IMG/VR virus record: IMGVR_UViG_3300026484_000476
Location: 1 to 28,358 of that record
Length of the DNA stretch: 28,358 nt
Source: a virus
Strand: one strand, 5' to 3'
Under the pieces are notes generated by a model that was not told the DNA's origin, did no database searches, and was given only the letters and a program-made list of their open reading frames with translations. The translations under genes were made by a program, and so were the position numbers. Below are positions 623-23,185 of this stretch, one piece after another; the stretch's first letter is position 1, and each line of letters opens with the position of its first letter.

Positions 623-630
623 TATTTATA
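623..630 (-). promoter_or_regulatory. T4-type late promoter box (TATAAATA)
   Basis: Perfect TATAAATA on the minus strand, overlapping the stop codon of the endonuclease gene. A start about 6 nt downstream would fall on the ATG at 618. In such AT-rich DNA a chance match is possible. Confidence 0.45.
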
Positions 631-2107
631 TACACTTATACTCATATTTAGATTGTCCGACTCCACAAATCATTCTAAAACCATTTTTGAATAAATTTTC
701 AGGACCTGATAAACTAGGATCATAGTCATTTAAAAAATTTGGAAGATTTTTTTTCATAACTTTATATCTTGAATAAAATATGCCGCATTTTAAATATCCG
801 TAATCTTGAGTTTCTGATATTTTTTGAAATCCTAGCATTTCATATAAATTCCCTTTAGAATATCTTAAATCAGCATAAGATATGATTTTTTTAGGACTAT
901 ATTTTCTAATAAAATATTTAAATAGTTTAGAAGCTCCACCCACTACATTTATCTCTCTTTTAGTAGAATATCTTATCAATTCTAAAGAATCTTCATTAAA
1001 CCTAGAACGACCGAAAGTCATAACCGATACTATCTCATCATCATTATAATATAATCCTATTTTTATAGAACTATTAGAATAACCTTGCAAATGATTATTA
1101 TCTATAAAATCTTTAGCTGTTTTAGTATCTATTTCTTTTATTACGCATTTTCTAGCAAATATTCTTTTATTAGATTTAAATTTATTTTTAATAATAGAAA
1201 TCCAAATATCTTTTTTTTCTATCCATTCGTGTTCTCTAATAGTAAAAAGTTGAACTTCTGGGTAATTTTCATTTATATATTTTGTTTTGTATTTTTGTTT
1301 TTTCATTAGGTCTGAAGGACTTTTAATACCCGGAGATGGATATGAATGCCAATAATCTCCATCGAACTCTATTCCGAAATTATAATCAGGAAAAAATATA
1401 TCTATTTCTTTATTAGGTATTAGTTTTCTAAAATTATGGATAGGATTAAAATCTTTAAATATATCTAAAATTTCTTGTTCGTATTTTGATTTTGGTTTTT
1501 GAATATTTAATTTTTTACAAAATCTTCTAGCTATGTCTTCAGAAAGGTTATATTTTTCTTTTAAATATGAATATCCTTTACTTAGCTCTTCTTTAGCCTT
1601 ATCATCATTATCAAAATAATCTAAAACCTCAAATTTGAGACTTCTTTCATCATATATTTTAAACTCTTTCAATAATTGAAGGTATTTAGTAGGAGAAACG
1701 TTTAAAAAAGAACAAGCATCAGATCTAGTCATATTAATAGATTCTTTCAATTTTTCAATATCAATATATTTGATTCTAGGATTTCCCTGTTTATATATTT
1801 TCGAATCTTTTCTATCTAAATTATAATATTTTAAATGTTTATAATATGAGTGAGCTGTTAAACCTAAGGATTTATAATCTTCTCCTGAGGGAAGTGAGCG
1901 AGATTTAATAATATCTTCTCTATTTATTTTAGGTTTAAATTCTTTAAAAATTCTTTTTCTCTTAAGGTTTAAACTTTTAGCAATAGTTCTTATAGTATCT
2001 GAGCTTATATTTAATATTTTAGAAATTTCAGAAAATTGTTTAGTATTATATAGGATTGTAAATTCTTCTGAAGATATATTAAGAGATTCTAGGGTAATTT
2101 TTTTCAT
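626..2107 (-). CDS. Vsr-like homing endonuclease with N-terminal HTH repeats
   Basis: A free-standing DNA endonuclease, 493 aa. The N-terminal ~200 residues carry several short helix-turn-helix-like units (for example 18-50 and 175-200), as in the NUMOD-type DNA-binding parts of homing enzymes. The central part (about 215-320) has the Vsr/EDxHD nuclease pattern: an acidic E-I-D-I-F-F strand, then GIEFDGDYWHS, then an R-E-H-E-W motif. The C-terminal part (about 320-470) has the C-x-I-K-x-I, NHLQGYS and VVGGASKLFKYF motifs that often accompany this nuclease in phages. It lies directly downstream of the major capsid gene, a classic insertion site next to a conserved gene. The start codon is buried in a hairpin (2102-2128) and lacks a clear ribosome-binding site. 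Family assignment is from recalled motifs; the target site is unknown. Confidence 0.85.
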   Translation of the reverse strand: MKKITLESLNISSEEFTILYNTKQFSEISKILNISSDTIRTIAKSLNLKRKRIFKEFKPKINREDIIKSRSLPSGEDYKSLGLTAHSYYKHLKYYNLDRKDSKIYKQGNPRIKYIDIEKLKESINMTRSDACSFLNVSPTKYLQLLKEFKIYDERSLKFEVLDYFDNDDKAKEELSKGYSYLKEKYNLSEDIARRFCKKLNIQKPKSKYEQEILDIFKDFNPIHNFRKLIPNKEIDIFFPDYNFGIEFDGDYWHSYPSPGIKSPSDLMKKQKYKTKYINENYPEVQLFTIREHEWIEKKDIWISIIKNKFKSNKRIFARKCVIKEIDTKTAKDFIDNNHLQGYSNSSIKIGLYYNDDEIVSVMTFGRSRFNEDSLELIRYSTKREINVVGGASKLFKYFIRKYSPKKIISYADLRYSKGNLYEMLGFQKISETQDYGYLKCGIFYSRYKVMKKNLPNFLNDYDPSLSGPENLFKNGFRMICGVGQSKYEYKCI

Positions 2108-2149: not shown

Positions 2150-2236
2150 CCTAAGAGGAGGAGGAAGACTCTTAGGCTCATTTAAGTCCTCCGAGGAGGA
2201 CTAAAGACTACGAAGTCAGTTCTTATTTAAGAACTG
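2150..2236 (-). terminator. Cluster of hairpins after the major capsid gene
   Basis: Perfect inverted repeats follow each other downstream of gene 23: CAGTTCTTA/TAAGAACTG (2217-2236, over the stop codon), a small GACT/AGTC hairpin (2206-2217), AGTCCTCC/GGAGGACT (2185-2202) and CCTAAGAG/CTCTTAGG (2150-2176). No long U tract follows any of them, so they may terminate weakly, protect the 3' end of the abundant capsid mRNA, or both. Confidence 0.6.
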
Positions 2237-3605
2237 AACTTGCGAAATCTACACCGATAGTTGAAGCATATGGAGAAGCTTCACCCATACTTACAGCGTC
2301 ATCTACCCAAGGGTTAGTAGCAAGACCATAACGAGTCATTGCGATAAGAGCAGGTTGACCAGTTGGAACATTTGTTACTTTTTGGATTTGAATTGGAGTG
2401 TATGGAGCATAAACACCAAGCGCATCTTGATTAGAACCTTTATAGATAAGAGTTGCATAATCATCTTTAGCATAGTTATCAACTACTACTGAGAATTTAT
2501 TATCAAATCTACCTACAACAGCAGCGTTAGCAGCTTGTGGATTAACAGTTGAATCAACATCTGATGCATAATAACCACCAATTTGCTCTAACATTGTAAG
2601 AACTTTTGGAGAAACAAGTAACTTGTTAGCTGCACCACGTTTATTTAATCTACCGATTTCACGACTCATATCACTAAGTTTAGTAGCAAGAAGTCTATAA
2701 TCTTCGATTTCCCATCTTGATCTACCAGCACCACTTACATCAACAACAAAGTCAGAGTGAACTGTAGCATTAGCATTAACAAAATCAACAACTTCACGGT
2801 CAGTTTCAGCTTTGATTTCATAGTTCATAAGACTCATAAGTTCTTGATCTGCAAGTACACCATGCATAGCTTTAAGATCTTGATACATCTCAATTGTATA
2901 TTCTGCACGTAATTTACGAGTTCTAGCTTCAACTTGCTTACGCTCAACAGCGATACCAAGTGTATTCATTTCTTTACCAGTAGTTCCTCTTACTTCACCT
3001 TCAGCAGTTGTATAAGAACCAGTGTAGTTAGGAAGAATTGCTTGCCAAGAAGCTTGATTTGAATATACAGCAGTTGTTTTAGTAGGTGTAGATTCAGCAT
3101 CAACATCTTCACCAGAGATGAATTTAACAGAACCAGCATCTAATTCTACAAGAACACGTCCAGCAACTTTGTTAGCGTGACCAAAACCATGAGTAGCAGG
3201 CTCAACATAAACAACAGTACCAGTAGCACCAGATGTAGCACCTGTAAGAGTATCTCCAACAGCTTTAACAGCAGAAAGATCTAAAACTTGAGCTTGGATG
3301 TTAGGGTCAATTTCATTAGCTGTAGAACCGTCGTAACGATTAGTTAAACTATAGATAAAACCAGTTGGACCAGCCATTGGTTGAACACCAAGAAGTTCGT
3401 TAGCAATTAGCGTAGGATATAATCTACGTAACATAGGCATTAAGAAAGGAGTAAATTGAGCAATATCCGCAGAGATAGTACCCTCAGCAATCATTTGCTT
3501 AGTTTCCTTTTCAGTATTTTCCATAATAGCAGCAAGTGTGCTTTTTTCAAATTCTCCAAGTGGAGCGTACTTAGTACTTTCTAAAAGTGCTTTATAATCA
3601 GCCAT
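2223..3605 (-). CDS. 23: Major capsid protein, T4 gp23-like
   Basis: 460-aa homologue of T4 gp23, which forms the hexamers of the head shell. The region after residue 50 matches the family well: R-R-x-x-P-x-L-I-A, then GVQPM-x-x-PTG (73-82), followed by the shell domain. An N-terminal propeptide is likely: residues 39-41 are I-A-E, matching the (I/L)-x-E rule of the T4 gp21 protease, with a new N-terminus at G42. T4 gp23 is likewise cut after about 65 residues. A Gly/Thr/Val-rich stretch at about 115-170 looks like an insertion domain. The start has a good Shine-Dalgarno (AAGGAAA) and a TATAAATA late box about 30 nt upstream. It is the last gene of the conserved 20-67-21-22-23 head block. Confidence 0.95.
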   Translation of the reverse strand: MADYKALLESTKYAPLGEFEKSTLAAIMENTEKETKQMIAEGTISADIAQFTPFLMPMLRRLYPTLIANELLGVQPMAGPTGFIYSLTNRYDGSTANEIDPNIQAQVLDLSAVKAVGDTLTGATSGATGTVVYVEPATHGFGHANKVAGRVLVELDAGSVKFISGEDVDAESTPTKTTAVYSNQASWQAILPNYTGSYTTAEGEVRGTTGKEMNTLGIAVERKQVEARTRKLRAEYTIEMYQDLKAMHGVLADQELMSLMNYEIKAETDREVVDFVNANATVHSDFVVDVSGAGRSRWEIEDYRLLATKLSDMSREIGRLNKRGAANKLLVSPKVLTMLEQIGGYYASDVDSTVNPQAANAAVVGRFDNKFSVVVDNYAKDDYATLIYKGSNQDALGVYAPYTPIQIQKVTNVPTGQPALIAMTRYGLATNPWVDDAVSMGEASPYASTIGVDFASSVLK

Positions 3606-3631
3606 TTTATTTCCTTTTTATATTTTAATTA

Positions 3632-3639
3632 TATTTATA
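3632..3639 (-). promoter_or_regulatory. Late promoter of the major capsid gene
   Basis: Perfect TATAAATA on the minus strand, 27 nt before the capsid ATG, with an A-rich leader and an AAGGAAA ribosome-binding site in between. This would drive gene 23 independently of gene 22. Confidence 0.75.
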
Positions 3640-3653
3640 TATTTATTATTATT

Positions 3654-3675
3654 ATTAACTAAACTAATAGTTAAT
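3654..3675 (-). terminator. Stem-loop in the gene 22-23 interval
   Basis: ATTAACTA pairs with TAGTTAAT (8 bp, 6-nt loop). On the minus strand it is followed by an AT-rich run that includes the gene 23 late promoter. It may end or stabilise the gene 22 transcript. Confidence 0.45.
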
Positions 3676-3679
3676 GGGA

Positions 3680-3733
3680 CTTGAAAAGCCGACACTATGT
3701 CGTTTCAGCTCTATTTCAATTCTACTTTTCAAG
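3680..3733 (-). ncRNA. Structured RNA element, copy 1 (3' of gene 22)
   Basis: An outer 9-bp stem (3680-3688 with 3725-3733, CTTGAAAAG/CTTTTCAAG) encloses an inner hairpin (CGACA/TGTCG, 3690-3702) and a 22-nt single-stranded segment. On the minus strand that segment reads, in order, AGA, TGAAA, AGAG and TGAAA. A second element with the same layout and the same unpaired motifs but different stem sequences lies at 4494-4547, so the pairings look selected. It starts 6 nt after the gene 22 stop codon. I cannot match it to a named RNA family. Confidence 0.6.
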
Positions 3734-3739
3734 CTTATA

Positions 3740-4471
3740 TTAAACGTATTTGCTAAAGTCGATAGCAGCAGCTACATCTACTTCTTCAGATTTATATGCA
3801 GCACCTGGCAATTTAGTAGCTTCTTCAGATTCATTAAAACCTTCAGCTCTATTAGAGATTAAATTTTCTTTAATAGTTTCAAGAGCATTTACATACTTCT
3901 CATCTCTAGAGAATTCAATCATCTCAGCTAAAGTTTCAAATCTTTCTTTTTCAGAAATAGTTAAACCTTCAGAAATTTCAGCAATAATACCTGTTTTAAG
4001 ATATTGTGTAGCTTCTTTTTTAGCTTCAATAAGTTCGTGTTCTTTTTCAGTTAATTTATCTTCAAGTCTAGCTAATCTATTTTCTAAAGAATTTTCATCT
4101 TCCATGATTTCTTTTTCAGTTTTAGCTTCTTGAATTTCTAACATCTCAACACCAGCAACTTTAAGCATACTATCGAACATCTCTAAAAGCTTTTCAGTTT
4201 TAGATTCTTCAATAATTCTTTCGTGTTTAACTTCGTTTTCAGCTACGAATTCCTCTACTACTGAAGTAAGATAACCGTCTAAAGTTTCTTCAAGATCTTC
4301 AACTTTTTCCTGATATTCTTCTTCGAGTTCAGCGCGTGCTTCCTCGATTTTTTCTTGAACATGAGATTCCATAAGTTCAACAGACTTAGCCATAACGGCT
4401 TTATCAAAAGCTTCAGTTAATTCTGCTTTTGTTTTATCATCAATATTTAATGATTCAAATAATTCGTTCAT
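3740..4471 (-). CDS. 22: Prohead core scaffolding protein, T4 gp22-like
   Basis: 243-aa, highly charged, helical protein in the gene 22 position between the protease and the major capsid gene. Residues about 30-75 and 125-160 are long Glu/Lys heptad-like coiled coils. Between them is a segment with V-V-E-E-F-V-A-E-N-E and an S-K-T-E-K-L-L-E-M-F motif, and towards the end is G-L-T-x-x-E-K-E-R-F-E-x-L-A-E, which resembles the conserved C-terminal part of T4 gp22. gp22 builds the scaffold inside the prohead and is destroyed by gp21 protease; several L/I-x-E sites are present. The last ~40 residues are less charged. Its mRNA starts from a late promoter at 4566-4559 and has an ~80-nt leader holding a structured element. 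Confidence 0.85.
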   Translation of the reverse strand: MNELFESLNIDDKTKAELTEAFDKAVMAKSVELMESHVQEKIEEARAELEEEYQEKVEDLEETLDGYLTSVVEEFVAENEVKHERIIEESKTEKLLEMFDSMLKVAGVEMLEIQEAKTEKEIMEDENSLENRLARLEDKLTEKEHELIEAKKEATQYLKTGIIAEISEGLTISEKERFETLAEMIEFSRDEKYVNALETIKENLISNRAEGFNESEEATKLPGAAYKSEEVDVAAAIDFSKYV

Positions 4472-4493
4472 TGAATTGTCCTTTTATTTTTAG

Positions 4494-4547
4494 AATTAAG
4501 ATTCTCATCTACATGAGATTTCACTCTTTTTCATCTCTATCTTAATT
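4494..4547 (-). ncRNA. Structured RNA element, copy 2 (5' leader of gene 22)
   Basis: Same architecture as 3680-3733: an outer 9-bp stem (AATTAAGAT 4494-4502 with ATCTTAATT 4539-4547), an inner hairpin (TCTCAT/ATGAGA, 4503-4518) and a 20-nt unpaired segment. On the minus strand the segment again carries AGA, TGAAA, AGAG and TGAAA in order. It lies in the 5' leader of gene 22, between its late promoter and its start codon. Stems differ between the copies while the unpaired motifs are kept, as expected for a functional RNA. Confidence 0.6.
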
Positions 4548-4558
4548 TTTCTTTATTT

Positions 4559-4566
4559 TATTTATA
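4559..4566 (-). promoter_or_regulatory. Late promoter of gene 22
   Basis: Perfect TATAAATA on the minus strand, 88 nt before the gene 22 ATG. The resulting leader would contain the structured element at 4494-4547. Confidence 0.65.
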
Positions 4567-12018: not shown

Positions 12019-12459
12019 ATGGAAAACCAAAAAACAGTAAAAAACGTAAAAGAACTTAAAGATGGTGGAGTTAAAAAATTCGGAAAAGTTGAAAAGGATA
12101 CTTTACCTAAATCTGAAATAATCATTGAAGGTGAGTTTGAAATAGTTCAAACCACTAAATATAAATCTAAGAAAGTAACTACTTTTGAAACTGCAGATGC
12201 TAAAAGCTTTACTAGACATTTAGAAAACGAAGCCGTTAAAAAATCTTTAAGAGAAACTTTTCCTAATGCTTCTAAAGAATTTATTTTCAATTCTAAAGGA
12301 TTTGAAGGTGATTTAGTAGATTTTATAGCTGAAAAAGAAGGTTTAGAAAGAAATGAAGTTTTTGAAAAAGCCGGAAGTAAGGAATCTATAGAAAAAATTC
12401 CAGGATATATGAAAGCTAGAGCAAGTAGAACTCCAGCAAAAGACGTATTCTATCAATAA
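12019..12459 (+). CDS. Unknown 146-aa protein
   Basis: A soluble, Lys/Glu-rich protein with an extended N-terminus (residues 1-30), a β-like segment (S-E-I-I-I-E-G-E-F-E-I-V) and a helical C-terminal half. No family recognised. It has its own promoter, an AAAGGAT ribosome-binding site, and a strong stem-loop directly behind it, so it is a monocistronic unit. Early or middle expression is inferred from the promoter type. Confidence 0.75.
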   Translation: MENQKTVKNVKELKDGGVKKFGKVEKDTLPKSEIIIEGEFEIVQTTKYKSKKVTTFETADAKSFTRHLENEAVKKSLRETFPNASKEFIFNSKGFEGDLVDFIAEKEGLERNEVFEKAGSKESIEKIPGYMKARASRTPAKDVFYQ

Positions 12460-14157: not shown

Positions 14158-14940
14158 ATGTTAGATGATTTTTTAAATTCTCTTCCAAACTTAGAAGAGG
14201 ATAAAACTGTTACTATAGCTCTTAGCGGAGGATTAGATAGCACTACTTTAGTTTATGCTTTAGTAGCCAAATATGGTAAAGATAAAGTTAAAACTTTGAG
14301 TTTTGATTTTGGACAAAGACACAATATTGAATTAGAAATGGCTAAGAAAACTTCTCAAATTTTAGAAATAGAAAATAGGGTTTATAAATTAGATTATTTA
14401 AAAGAAATTTCTAAAGATGTTAGTGCTTTAATAGAAGGAAGTGAATTAAAGCCTAAAACGGCTGAGGAAAATGCAGGTGATCCTCAAATTAATACTTATG
14501 TTCCTTTTCGAAATATGCAATTTGCTGCTATAACGGCAGCTTTTGCCGAAGCTAAAAATTCTCAATATATTTTTCAAGGCCTTAATGCTACTGATCTATA
14601 TGGATATTGGGATACTTCAGAGGAATTCGTAAAAAGAATTAACTCTGTTTTAGAATTAAATAGACAAAATAATATTCAATTTGTTGCTCCTTTTGTAGAA
14701 TTTTATAAAGAAGACGAATTAAAATTAGCTAAAGAACTTTCAGAAAAATTCGAATTAGATATTTTAAAAAAGACTTGGAGTTGTTATAACGGATTGCCTG
14801 AAAGTGGAGAATTTAAAGAATGTGGAGTTTGCAATACTTGCTCTGAAAAACTTTTAGGATATATTCAAGCAGGATATTCTGATAAAGATATTTTAGATAA
14901 ATTCAACATTACTCAAGAAAGATTAGAGGAATTAAAATAA
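14158..14940 (+). CDS. queC: 7-cyano-7-deazaguanine (preQ0) synthase QueC
   Basis: 260-aa ATP-dependent enzyme that turns 7-carboxy-7-deazaguanine plus ammonia into preQ0. Visible: PP-loop S-G-G-L-D-S-T (23-29), S-F-D-F-G-Q-R-H (48-55), and a C-terminal zinc site of four cysteines (C209, C222, C225, C228). The family motif V-P-G-R-N appears here as V-P-F-R-N (115-119). There is no glutamine-amidotransferase domain, unlike the Gat-QueC fusions of some phages that lead to the 7-amido base. It starts 2 nt after the FAD gene and its stop codon overlaps the queE start. Confidence 0.93.
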   Translation: MLDDFLNSLPNLEEDKTVTIALSGGLDSTTLVYALVAKYGKDKVKTLSFDFGQRHNIELEMAKKTSQILEIENRVYKLDYLKEISKDVSALIEGSELKPKTAEENAGDPQINTYVPFRNMQFAAITAAFAEAKNSQYIFQGLNATDLYGYWDTSEEFVKRINSVLELNRQNNIQFVAPFVEFYKEDELKLAKELSEKFELDILKKTWSCYNGLPESGEFKECGVCNTCSEKLLGYIQAGYSDKDILDKFNITQERLEELK

Positions 14941-15707
14941 TGGTACCGATAGTAGAAACTTTTTATAGCATTCAAGGTGAAGGAAAAAGAATAGTTCCTT
15001 CAGTATTTGTGAGATCAGGATTATGTAATTTCAAATGTGAAGGATTCGGATGTTCTTTAAAATCACCTGATGGAGAAGTTATTAAAGGGTGTGATAGCAT
15101 TAGAGCGGTATCTCCTAAATTTAAAGATTCTTGGGAATATTATGTTAATTATGGAGATTTGGTTGATAGGATTGATGAAACCATGCCTACTTTTAGCAAA
15201 GAGAATTTTTTAAAGCCTGATATTGTTTGGACGGGAGGTGAGCCTCTAATTCATTGGAGAGAAAATGTAATGCAAAGAACTCTCTCTCATTATATATCTA
15301 GAGGACATAAAGTTACTATAGAAACTAACGCCGCTTTGGATATAGAATTTTCTAGAAAATATCAAGAAGAAATTATGTTTTCTATGTCCGTAAAACTATC
15401 TAATTCAGGAGAACCTGAACATAAAAGAGTAAACATTGAAAACATCACTACTATTTTAGAACATTGTCCTGAAAGTTATCTCAAATTTGTAGTTTCTAAG
15501 AAAACTTGGAAAAATGATTGGGAAGAAATTAAATCTATTTTAAAAAGCATTCCTATATTTGCTACTGTTTACTTGATGCCTATGGGAGAAACTAAAAAAG
15601 AAGTTGACGAGAACTGCAATTTCGTAATGGAAAAATGCGTAGAGTTAGGTTTTAATTATTCTGATAGGTTGCATATTAGATCTTGGAATGATAAGCCTGG
15701 AGTATAA
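14940..15707 (+). CDS. queE: 7-carboxy-7-deazaguanine synthase QueE (radical SAM)
   Basis: 255-aa radical SAM enzyme that rearranges 6-carboxytetrahydropterin to 7-carboxy-7-deazaguanine. The N-terminus has E-T-F-Y-S-I-Q-G-E-G (6-15), typical of QueE. The cluster cysteines are unusual: C29 and C33 (C-x3-C), then C38 and C51 (in K-G-C-D-S) as candidates for the third ligand, instead of a plain C-x3-C-x2-C. I believe insertions here occur in some bacterial QueE types. W-T-G-G-E-P-L (about 97-103) binds SAM, and T-I-E-T-N-A follows near 125. It overlaps the last base of the queC stop codon. Confidence 0.92.
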   Translation: MVPIVETFYSIQGEGKRIVPSVFVRSGLCNFKCEGFGCSLKSPDGEVIKGCDSIRAVSPKFKDSWEYYVNYGDLVDRIDETMPTFSKENFLKPDIVWTGGEPLIHWRENVMQRTLSHYISRGHKVTIETNAALDIEFSRKYQEEIMFSMSVKLSNSGEPEHKRVNIENITTILEHCPESYLKFVVSKKTWKNDWEEIKSILKSIPIFATVYLMPMGETKKEVDENCNFVMEKCVELGFNYSDRLHIRSWNDKPGV

Positions 15708-21214: not shown

Positions 21215-21970
21215 ATGAATATTAAACAATTTGTAAAAGAAAGATATATTAAACAAGGCTTTAAAAATTTTAATAAATTTTGGAAAGAATATGAAGAAAT
21301 TCAAAATTTTGCTCCAAATGGTAACGTTTTTGAAGATGATAAGGGTATTTCGGATGAGGCTCATTTTATTATGAGAATGTGCACTCAATATTATTTGACT
21401 AAAGCTTTCGAAGCTATGAAGATCGATTTATCTGATGATAATGTATCCGAAAATCTAGACGAGGGTAATATTGGAACGCCAGGAAGAATCGCAAAAGTTT
21501 GGACAGGATTTGATACTCATGATGATATGGAACTCGGAGGAGGAAGATGGAATAGAAAACCAAGATTAGCAAGTTTTCCAAATACAGGGAATTCTAATAT
21601 TCCTATTACTAAAAGAGTAGATATTGTTTCTAACTGTTCTCATCATTTTATACCTTTTCATACTTTAGCTAGACCTGATTCTTACGCTATTATTAGTTAC
21701 ATCCCTGATAAGAAAGTTTTAGGAATTTCTAAGCTTCAGAGAGTTGCTAATTGGGTTTCTCAAAGATTTTGGCTTCAAGAAGATTTAACCAAAACTCTAT
21801 ATGAAGAAATAGCTGAAGTAGCAGAAACTGATAGCGTTTATGTAAAGTTATATAACGTAGTTCACGGTTGTGAGAGTCTTAGAGGTGCTAAAAGCAATGA
21901 TGGAGCTTTTACAAGTGAATATTACGGTGGCGCTTTTGAAGATCCTGAATTGAGGAGACAAATTGTATGA
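21215..21970 (+). CDS. folE: GTP cyclohydrolase I FolE
   Basis: 251 aa. It converts GTP to dihydroneopterin triphosphate, the first step of the preQ0 (and folate) pathway. The catalytic domain occupies about residues 85-235. Zinc ligands are C141 and H144 in S-N-C-S-H-H-F-I-P-F and C219 in H-G-C-E-S-L-R-G. The central G-I-S-K-L-Q-R-V-A-N-W (170-180) and Q-E-D-L-T (188-192) fit the family consensus. Residues 1-80 are an extended N-terminus. It overlaps the next gene by 4 nt and is followed by queD about 610 nt later, while queC-queE lie 6-7 kb upstream. Confidence 0.93.
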   Translation: MNIKQFVKERYIKQGFKNFNKFWKEYEEIQNFAPNGNVFEDDKGISDEAHFIMRMCTQYYLTKAFEAMKIDLSDDNVSENLDEGNIGTPGRIAKVWTGFDTHDDMELGGGRWNRKPRLASFPNTGNSNIPITKRVDIVSNCSHHFIPFHTLARPDSYAIISYIPDKKVLGISKLQRVANWVSQRFWLQEDLTKTLYEEIAEVAETDSVYVKLYNVVHGCESLRGAKSNDGAFTSEYYGGAFEDPELRRQIV

Positions 21971-22497: not shown

Positions 22498-22586
22498 ATA
22501 TAGATGGAAATAATCTATCTGAAATTGCGTGTAATATAGTAGACGATTTTACACCATTTAAACTAAATAAAGGAAAAAATAAATGA
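22494..22586 (+). CDS. Possible 30-aa peptide bridging to queD
   Basis: A TTG at 22494 overlaps the previous stop codon and opens a 30-codon frame whose TGA overlaps the queD ATG. The translation looks protein-like (L-S-E-I-A-C-N-I-V-D-D-F). The ribosome-binding site is weak, so it may be chance. Confidence 0.28.
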   Translation: MNIDGNNLSEIACNIVDDFTPFKLNKGKNK

Positions 22587-23185
22587 AATACATTATTGAT
22601 AAATCGTTTTCGTTCTGTTACGGACATAGAGTTCATAATCAGCGTTTAGATACAAAATTTACAGAAAGCGGAGATGCTTGCTTAGCCTGTCGTCATTTGC
22701 ACGGTCACGAAGGCTTAGTAAAGGTCTTTTTAGAAGAAGATACAGATAGCACAAATGTACAGGATACAGGAATGGTAACGGATTTCAAACATCTTGGATG
22801 GTTTAAGAATTTTCTAGATGATGTGTTAGATCATAAATTTATTATGGATATTAAAGATCCTTTATTTGAAAATGAATTCGGATTTTGTATTAAAAATAAG
22901 ACTCTTATTCATACTCATAAAATGAAAGAAGGTTTTTTTATACCGGATTTAGATTTTATTAAAGAACGACTTGATATTGATGCTACTTTAACACCAGAAC
23001 AAAGATCTTCGATATTTGAAAAGTACGAAGGTGCAGTTTTTGTAGATTTTGTACCTACTTCTGAAAACTTATCAGGATGGTTGCTTTCAATAGTTCAAGA
23101 AAAAATGAAAGACTTACCAGGAATTAGAGTAAAAGCTGTTGAATACTGGGAGACACCAAAATCGCATTGTAGAGTGGAGGCATAA
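22583..23185 (+). CDS. queD: 6-carboxy-5,6,7,8-tetrahydropterin synthase QueD
   Basis: 200-aa enzyme for the second step of preQ0 synthesis. Zinc ligands are H15 (in C-Y-G-H-R), H40 and H42 (in H-L-H-G-H). C33/C36 just before them include the catalytic Cys candidate. G-M-V-T-D-F (63-68) and L-D-H-K (82-85) follow, then P-T-S-E-N-L-S-G-W and a final V-E-Y-W-E-T. It is longer than bacterial QueD (~120 aa) because of an insertion at about 90-150. A good ribosome-binding site (AAAGGAAAA) precedes it. Confidence 0.92.
   Translation: MKYIIDKSFSFCYGHRVHNQRLDTKFTESGDACLACRHLHGHEGLVKVFLEEDTDSTNVQDTGMVTDFKHLGWFKNFLDDVLDHKFIMDIKDPLFENEFGFCIKNKTLIHTHKMKEGFFIPDLDFIKERLDIDATLTPEQRSSIFEKYEGAVFVDFVPTSENLSGWLLSIVQEKMKDLPGIRVKAVEYWETPKSHCRVEA

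Follow-up and report, generated by a model that had tools for sequence, protein, structure and literature searches.

The head genes of the T4-like myovirus analysed here raise the question of whether two similar hairpin-bearing stretches, one on either side of the scaffold gene, are selected RNA, and what such RNA would do for the messages that carry it. The window, meaning the whole stretch of DNA that was analysed, comprises 28,358 bases and corresponds to a virus record of IMG/VR. Its minus strand encodes the portal protein (gp20), protease (gp21), scaffold protein (gp22) and capsid protein (gp23), followed by a homing endonuclease gene. Gene 22 (3740..4471, minus strand) was assigned as a T4-like head scaffolding protein gene based on the Pfam family T4_CASP (E 1.8e-27) and PHROG 237 (head scaffolding protein), the major capsid protein gene 23 (2223..3605, minus strand) based on the Pfam family Gp23 (E 3.8e-88), and the homing endonuclease gene directly downstream of gene 23 (window 626-2107) based on PHROG 3339. 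A T4-type late promoter box, TATAAATA, precedes gene 22 at 4559..4566 on the minus strand.

In gp23 comparisons, the closest named phages were those of Vibrio and Campylobacter, with approximately 41-47% identity. The host of this T4-like phage group is probably a member of the Campylobacterales, an assignment drawn from relatives only, namely a contig in a Campylobacterales MAG and the Campylobacter phages. Elsewhere in the window (14158-15707, 21215-21970 and 22583-23185) are genes resembling QueC, QueE, FolE and QueD by sequence, which suggests a putative 7-deazaguanine (preQ0) pathway leading to modified phage DNA.

Architecture of the RNA Element

The preliminary description of this DNA had reported two elements of one layout on the minus strand, and both were recovered as described. 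Copy A (4494..4547, minus strand) lies in the gene 22 leader, 11 nt after the late box, and scores 59.5 bits (E 3e-12) with the covariance model R2, of whose training set it is a member. It consists of a closing stem P1 (5′ arm 4539-4547, 3′ arm 4494-4502), an unpaired core (4519-4538) and a hairpin P3 (4503-4518). The stem is 9 bp long (AATTAAGAT/ATCTTAATT), the core has 20 nt (AGAGATGAAAAAGAGTGAAA), and the 6-bp hairpin, TCTCAT-GTAG-ATGAGA, is flush with the 3′ arm. Copy B (3679..3734, minus strand) lies in the spacer between genes 22 and 23 and scores 60.5 bits with R2, also as a training-set member. Its parts are the P1 5′ arm (3724-3734), the core (3703-3723), the P3 hairpin (3690-3702) and the P1 3′ arm (3679-3689). 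The stem, first read as 9 bp (3680-3733), extends to 11 pairs when a U-G pair and an end pair are counted; the core has 21 nt (AGAATTGAAATAGAGCTGAAA) and the 5-bp hairpin is CGACA-TAG-TGTCG. Folding and the comparison of leaders also identified a plain hairpin, TTAACTA-TTAGTT-TAGTTAA, located 3′ of copy B (3655..3674, minus strand); several relatives have hairpins at the same place that are unrelated to it in sequence.

Comparison of copies, including those from the related phages described below, gives the general plan of the element. P1 closes the structure and leaves the ribosome-binding site outside, and P3 adjoins its 3′ arm without a gap. P1 comprises 6-14 bp and occurs in many sequences, with UAAGU as a frequent end, while P3 comprises 2-7 bp and has loops that vary among copies; together they usually amount to 10-19 bp. 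The purine-rich strand linking P1 to P3 is almost invariant, reading AGA, then 2-3 nt or a hairpin (P2), then TGAAA-(n)AGA-n-TGAAA. Its variants concern an optional base after the first UGAAA, the choice of AGA or AG, and the one to few bases that precede the final UGAAA. Nearly all of the conserved bases are unpaired, and they form two similar AGA-nn-TGAAA units. In the gene 22 leaders of L012, L013, L014, L015, L016 and L190, P2 takes the place of the bases that follow AG(A/U); a true structured RNA can be expected to tolerate such an optional hairpin at one fixed site of its conserved core.

Conservation and Covariation in Related Phages

The core pattern has two matches in the window, whereas in 100 shuffles it averaged 0.01 and never reached two. 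The stem layout alone is unremarkable in such an AT-rich window, with 21 layouts versus 15-19 across six Markov-generated controls. Copy A is not distinguished from its shuffles by folding (z -1.3); copy B folds better than shuffles (z -2.8), although part of the core is paired in its predicted minimum. Given these layout counts and the weak fold of copy A, two copies in one window are insufficient to prove selection, and the case for a selected RNA is made by the covariation of their homologues.

Among viral contigs, searches with gp23 identified 15 close relatives, and a contig of a Campylobacterales MAG provided one more. Both leaders were readable in 12 non-redundant phages (the window, L004, L006, L007, L008, L010, L012, L013, L014, L015, L016 and L190), and the element precedes both gene 22 and gene 23 in every one of them (24/24 leaders). 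When 18 short-form copies were aligned to R2, an alignment that is fitted to the structure and so biased toward it, 98.7% of the cells at the 13 P1 and P3 pairs were paired, compared with 56% for shuffled copies and 33-43% after sliding of the partner; the stems are also evident on direct reading of every copy without alignment. Each of the 13 pairs has two-sided changes, which occupy 99 cells versus 29 in the control, and the covariation score was reached by none of 500 shuffles. In the six extended copies, the arms of P2 are 100% paired with their own partners and 39% paired when swapped between phages.

These results decide against chance hairpins in AT-rich intergenic DNA, a reading that could draw on the commonness of the stem layout in the window and on the shuffle-like folding of copy A. 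Despite the near-control layout counts, chance structure is ruled out by covariation far above both controls, the presence of the element in each readable leader of both genes and the pairing of the P2 arms, and we assign it practically no probability. It is close to certain that both elements are copies of one selected, cis-acting structured RNA leader. The earlier claim of a selected, covarying RNA is thereby borne out, with covariation in all 13 pairs and with the element kept in the gene 22 and 23 leaders of all 12 phages.

Position Relative to Late Promoters and Start Codons

The distance from the late box TATAAATA to the start of P1 is 5-13 nt in 17 of the 21 boxed gene-22 and gene-23 copies. 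Before gene 22 it is 6-13 nt (n = 11, sd 2.1), and the twelfth leader, that of L013, has a one-mismatch box immediately upstream. Before gene 23 it is 5-9 nt in six of ten boxed leaders and 16-38 nt in four; two leaders have no upstream box. The T4 late start site is situated approximately one helical turn downstream of the box (PMC2988020), so P1 is expected to begin at about +1 to +9 of the mRNA in most copies. Judged by box position, a stable stem is thus placed at or near +1 in 17/21 boxed copies; window copy B, with its present box, does not fit this placement. The element is separated from the start codon by 19-35 nt before gene 22 and by 23-73 nt before gene 23. Typical late leaders in these phages are 14-30 nt long, and the element-bearing leaders are longer and exceptional.

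Other long late leaders, including that of the tail sheath, are structured but different from the element and were set apart from it. The tail sheath leader of the 183-kb relative (L309, reverse strand 1622) spans 116 nt and has a closing stem right after TATAAATA, without the AGA/TGAAA core. It may be that these phages use closing stems at the 5′ terminus more widely.

Most of the relatives have a late promoter after the gene 22 stop codon and copy B behind it; in L004 and L005 the box is found 7 nt upstream of the gene 23 element. The window phage and its close relative L003 have no box upstream of copy B and a perfect one between copy B and gene 23, found by sequence in the window at 3632..3639 on the minus strand. 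With the upstream box gone in these two phages, copy B should be carried there mainly on transcripts from the gene 22 promoter, and transcripts that start from the downstream box should lack it. Since most boxed copies start P1 5-13 nt after a late box, copy B is best read, from the arrangement of these sequences, as a gene-23 leader element. The view that the two elements flank gene 22 is correct as to their positions but unsupported as a framing, as genes 22 and 23 each carry a copy in their own leader. The related suggestion that they set scaffold dosage relative to capsid is unsupported, both genes bearing the same module.

The location of the element directly after late promoters in most copies would suit a nascent-RNA element that acts on RNA polymerase after promoter escape, similar to put of phage HK022, and aids late elongation; put needs RNA structure alone (PMC9378689). 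However, no terminator-like site that such an element would have to overcome was found in the gene 22-23 region, most late promoters are without the element, and window copy B lies upstream of the box nearest gene 23, which leaves this role improbable. An RNA-processing site or self-cleaving ribozyme that trims the 22-23 transcript is similarly improbable. Copy B does lie between two co-oriented genes, and short conserved unpaired strands beside stacked helices typify ribozyme cores, but no Rfam ribozyme match was obtained in the relatives, even at a relaxed threshold. The combined length of P1 and P3 is also short for an RNase III site, and trimming a few bases off the 5′ end of the gene 22 mRNA would bring little gain. 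Both roles are less likely for want of a terminator-like site and of a known ribozyme, and nothing points to the cleavage that the preliminary description had considered.

Distribution beyond Genes 22 and 23

Strong copies in the 183-kb and 235-kb contigs occur only at genes 22 and 23; weak model matches in the 183-kb genome, which lack the full core or the box, are probably due to chance and were discounted. One strong copy (43.9 bits, E 1e-8) was found in the T4-like contig G009 (40.7 kb, the source of L228), where it follows a late box by 4 nt and precedes the gene of a 346-aa protein read by eye as tail-fibre-like. A weaker copy in G009 (22.6 bits) follows a late box by 19 nt and precedes an outer-membrane beta-barrel gene. 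In L228 (IMGVR_UViG_3300033146_003000), positions 3139-3875 encode this outer-membrane beta-barrel protein (PF13505), behind the late promoter and the weaker copy. The 235-kb relative (L327) has a homologue of the gene, with 37% identity, that does not carry the element.

The gene 22 and 23 leaders of Campylobacter phages CP220, F379 and NCTC12673 and Vibrio phage phiKT1024 are without the element, and searches of the whole records of these phages with R2 returned nothing credible. The stricter five-sequence model R1 likewise found none in the more distant gp23 relatives L166-L189. A search of 299 Campylobacterales genomes with R2 produced 26 matches at E up to 0.05, where approximately 15 are expected by chance. 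The best of these is the phage contig in a MAG (L190), and 16 of the next 19 matches inspected are inside long open frames; the matches other than L190 were treated as chance, leaving no credible copy outside that contig in the 299 genomes. IMG/VR was scanned for a box followed by AGAnnTGAAA...TGAAA, a pattern that extended copies with P2 fall outside. This returned 80 contig stretches, with convincing pairing only in the present phage group or the L228 contig. The match in L460 was rejected because its P1 is made solely of A-T pairs. A separate pattern match, L104, has a long stem and no late box and was left out of the count.

Two other structured leaders were observed among the relatives. 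In CP220 and F379 (L158, L161) the gene 22 leader has a long hairpin, AAGCAA(G)TATC...GATATTTGCTT, the inner part of which is apparently inverted between the two phages; this is a different element. In G003, an 81.7-kb relative (L330, L331, L332), a different structured leader directly follows TATAAATA at reverse-strand positions 12193, 328, 7530 and 17514. Its P1 (TATAAGAG/CTCTTATA) is accompanied by a long P2 hairpin, whose loop may pair with the 3′ linker in a covarying pseudoknot of 8-10 bp, for example TTCGACGGTC/GACCGTCGAA and TACTAGGTTC/GAACCTAGTA. Some of its copies apparently lie before homing-endonuclease-like genes, and there is no meaningful Rfam match in L329/L330.

The restriction of strong copies to genes 22 and 23 in the 183 and 235 kb contigs would be expected of a protein operator, at which a phage or host RNA-binding protein on the core would jointly tune, up or down, how the scaffold and capsid mRNAs are translated or degraded. 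Such a protein is possibly a dimer, given the repeated AGA-nn-TGAAA unit, and may be compared with gp32, whose action on the leader pseudoknot of its own gene in T4 provides a precedent (PMC3014915). However, anywhere from 19 to 73 nt separate the element from the start codon, several leaders have further hairpins in this interval, and the ribosome-binding site is not enclosed by P1. The tail-fibre-like gene and probably the outer-membrane-protein gene also carry the element, which is thus not strictly part of a head-protein loop. An operator is somewhat unlikely on balance, and it keeps this standing because the conserved bases are repeated and unpaired.

Proposed Function of the Leader

Stabilisation of the mRNA or a boost to its expression is the leading reading and stands an even chance of being the main job of the element, with the protein operator as its chief rival; the preliminary description had raised both mRNA protection and protein binding. 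In this proposal, a few late mRNAs carry the module at their 5′ end or close to it, namely those for the scaffold, the major capsid protein and, in one relative, the tail-fibre-like protein. There the conserved strand would fold against the stacked P1/P3 helix or be held by a protein, and the element would hide the 5′ end from pyrophosphohydrolase and RNase J-type 5′-to-3′ decay. The ribosome-binding site would stay open downstream, and the outcome would be an abundant, long-lived and well-translated capsid mRNA.

The variable distance between element and start codon, together with the lack of a terminator-like site, fits a function at the 5′ end better than a ribosome-site switch. A 5′ UTR stem-loop of Helicobacter pylori (PMC4843948) may serve as a precedent in the likely host group, and for a lytic phage 5′ protection would be most profitable on its late capsid mRNAs. 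Against a protective leader stand copy B of the window phage and L003, which transcripts from the downstream box would lack, and four gene-23 copies in other phages, located 16-38 nt past their box.

Plain 5′ stabilisers need no conserved unpaired sequence, and the conserved core therefore implies a specific fold or partner; it must add something, either a tertiary fold resistant to unwinding or a protein. One specific form of protection is unlikely, namely that the conserved strand winds around the stacked P1/P3 helix and forms a mechanical barrier to RNase J at the start of the mRNA. If true, the element would be a bacteriophage counterpart of the viral exonuclease-resistant RNAs, placed on the messages of greatest use to the phage. 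The element represents a compact, strongly covarying RNA family without an Rfam entry, found on heavily used late genes, and offers a ready test of how lytic phages preserve capsid mRNA in hosts such as the Campylobacterales, which this phage group probably infects and among which Helicobacter presumably relies on RNase J and lacks RNase E.

Comparison with Known RNAs

No match to Rfam 15 was found in the window at the gathering score, nor up to E 1 in the element-bearing relatives L014 and L006, and no description of the motif was found in the open-access literature, in keeping with the preliminary description, which knew of no named RNA of this pattern. Structured phage mRNA leaders are already known as a kind, and it is this architecture that is new. 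The core AGA-nn-UGAAA-(n)AGA-n-UGAAA contains no CUGANGA, as a hammerhead ribozyme would, and gave no Rfam match. As for a riboswitch expression platform, no terminator-like site was found and the ribosome-binding site lies outside P1 at a variable distance. Judged by eye, there is no conserved partner of the P3 loop downstream that would form an H-type pseudoknot of the T4 gene 32 type.

HK022 put consists of two adjacent stem-loops, whereas in the present element a single hairpin is nested against the stem that closes it, and a long single strand is conserved. Put counters pausing and termination by its RNA structure alone, and as a phage RNA structure shortly downstream of promoters it resembles the element in position (PMC9378689); however, it acts on early transcripts and the present element on late ones, and there is no sequence link between them.

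The T4 gene 32 operator is likewise an RNA structure in an mRNA leader of a T4-type phage; its pseudoknot, to which gp32 binds, lies 67 nt ahead of the start codon of gene 32 (PMC3014915). Unlike that operator, the leaders described here have no pseudoknot or UUAA(A) repeats seen at the ribosome-binding site, and one element serves two or more different genes.

The H. pylori stem-loop is similar in being a 5′ UTR stem in the Campylobacterota with a proposed role in blocking RppH/RNase J access. H. pylori has no RNase E, and its mRNA decay is thought to run through RNase J (PMC4843948). When the stem-loop is broken, the mRNA is 2-6 fold lower and its half-life shorter, for which access of RppH and RNase J was proposed as the cause (PMC4843948). 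That feature is a simple stem-loop, whereas the leader of these phages combines a conserved unpaired core with a second stacked hairpin and an optional third one, and is a selected element carried on phage late mRNAs.
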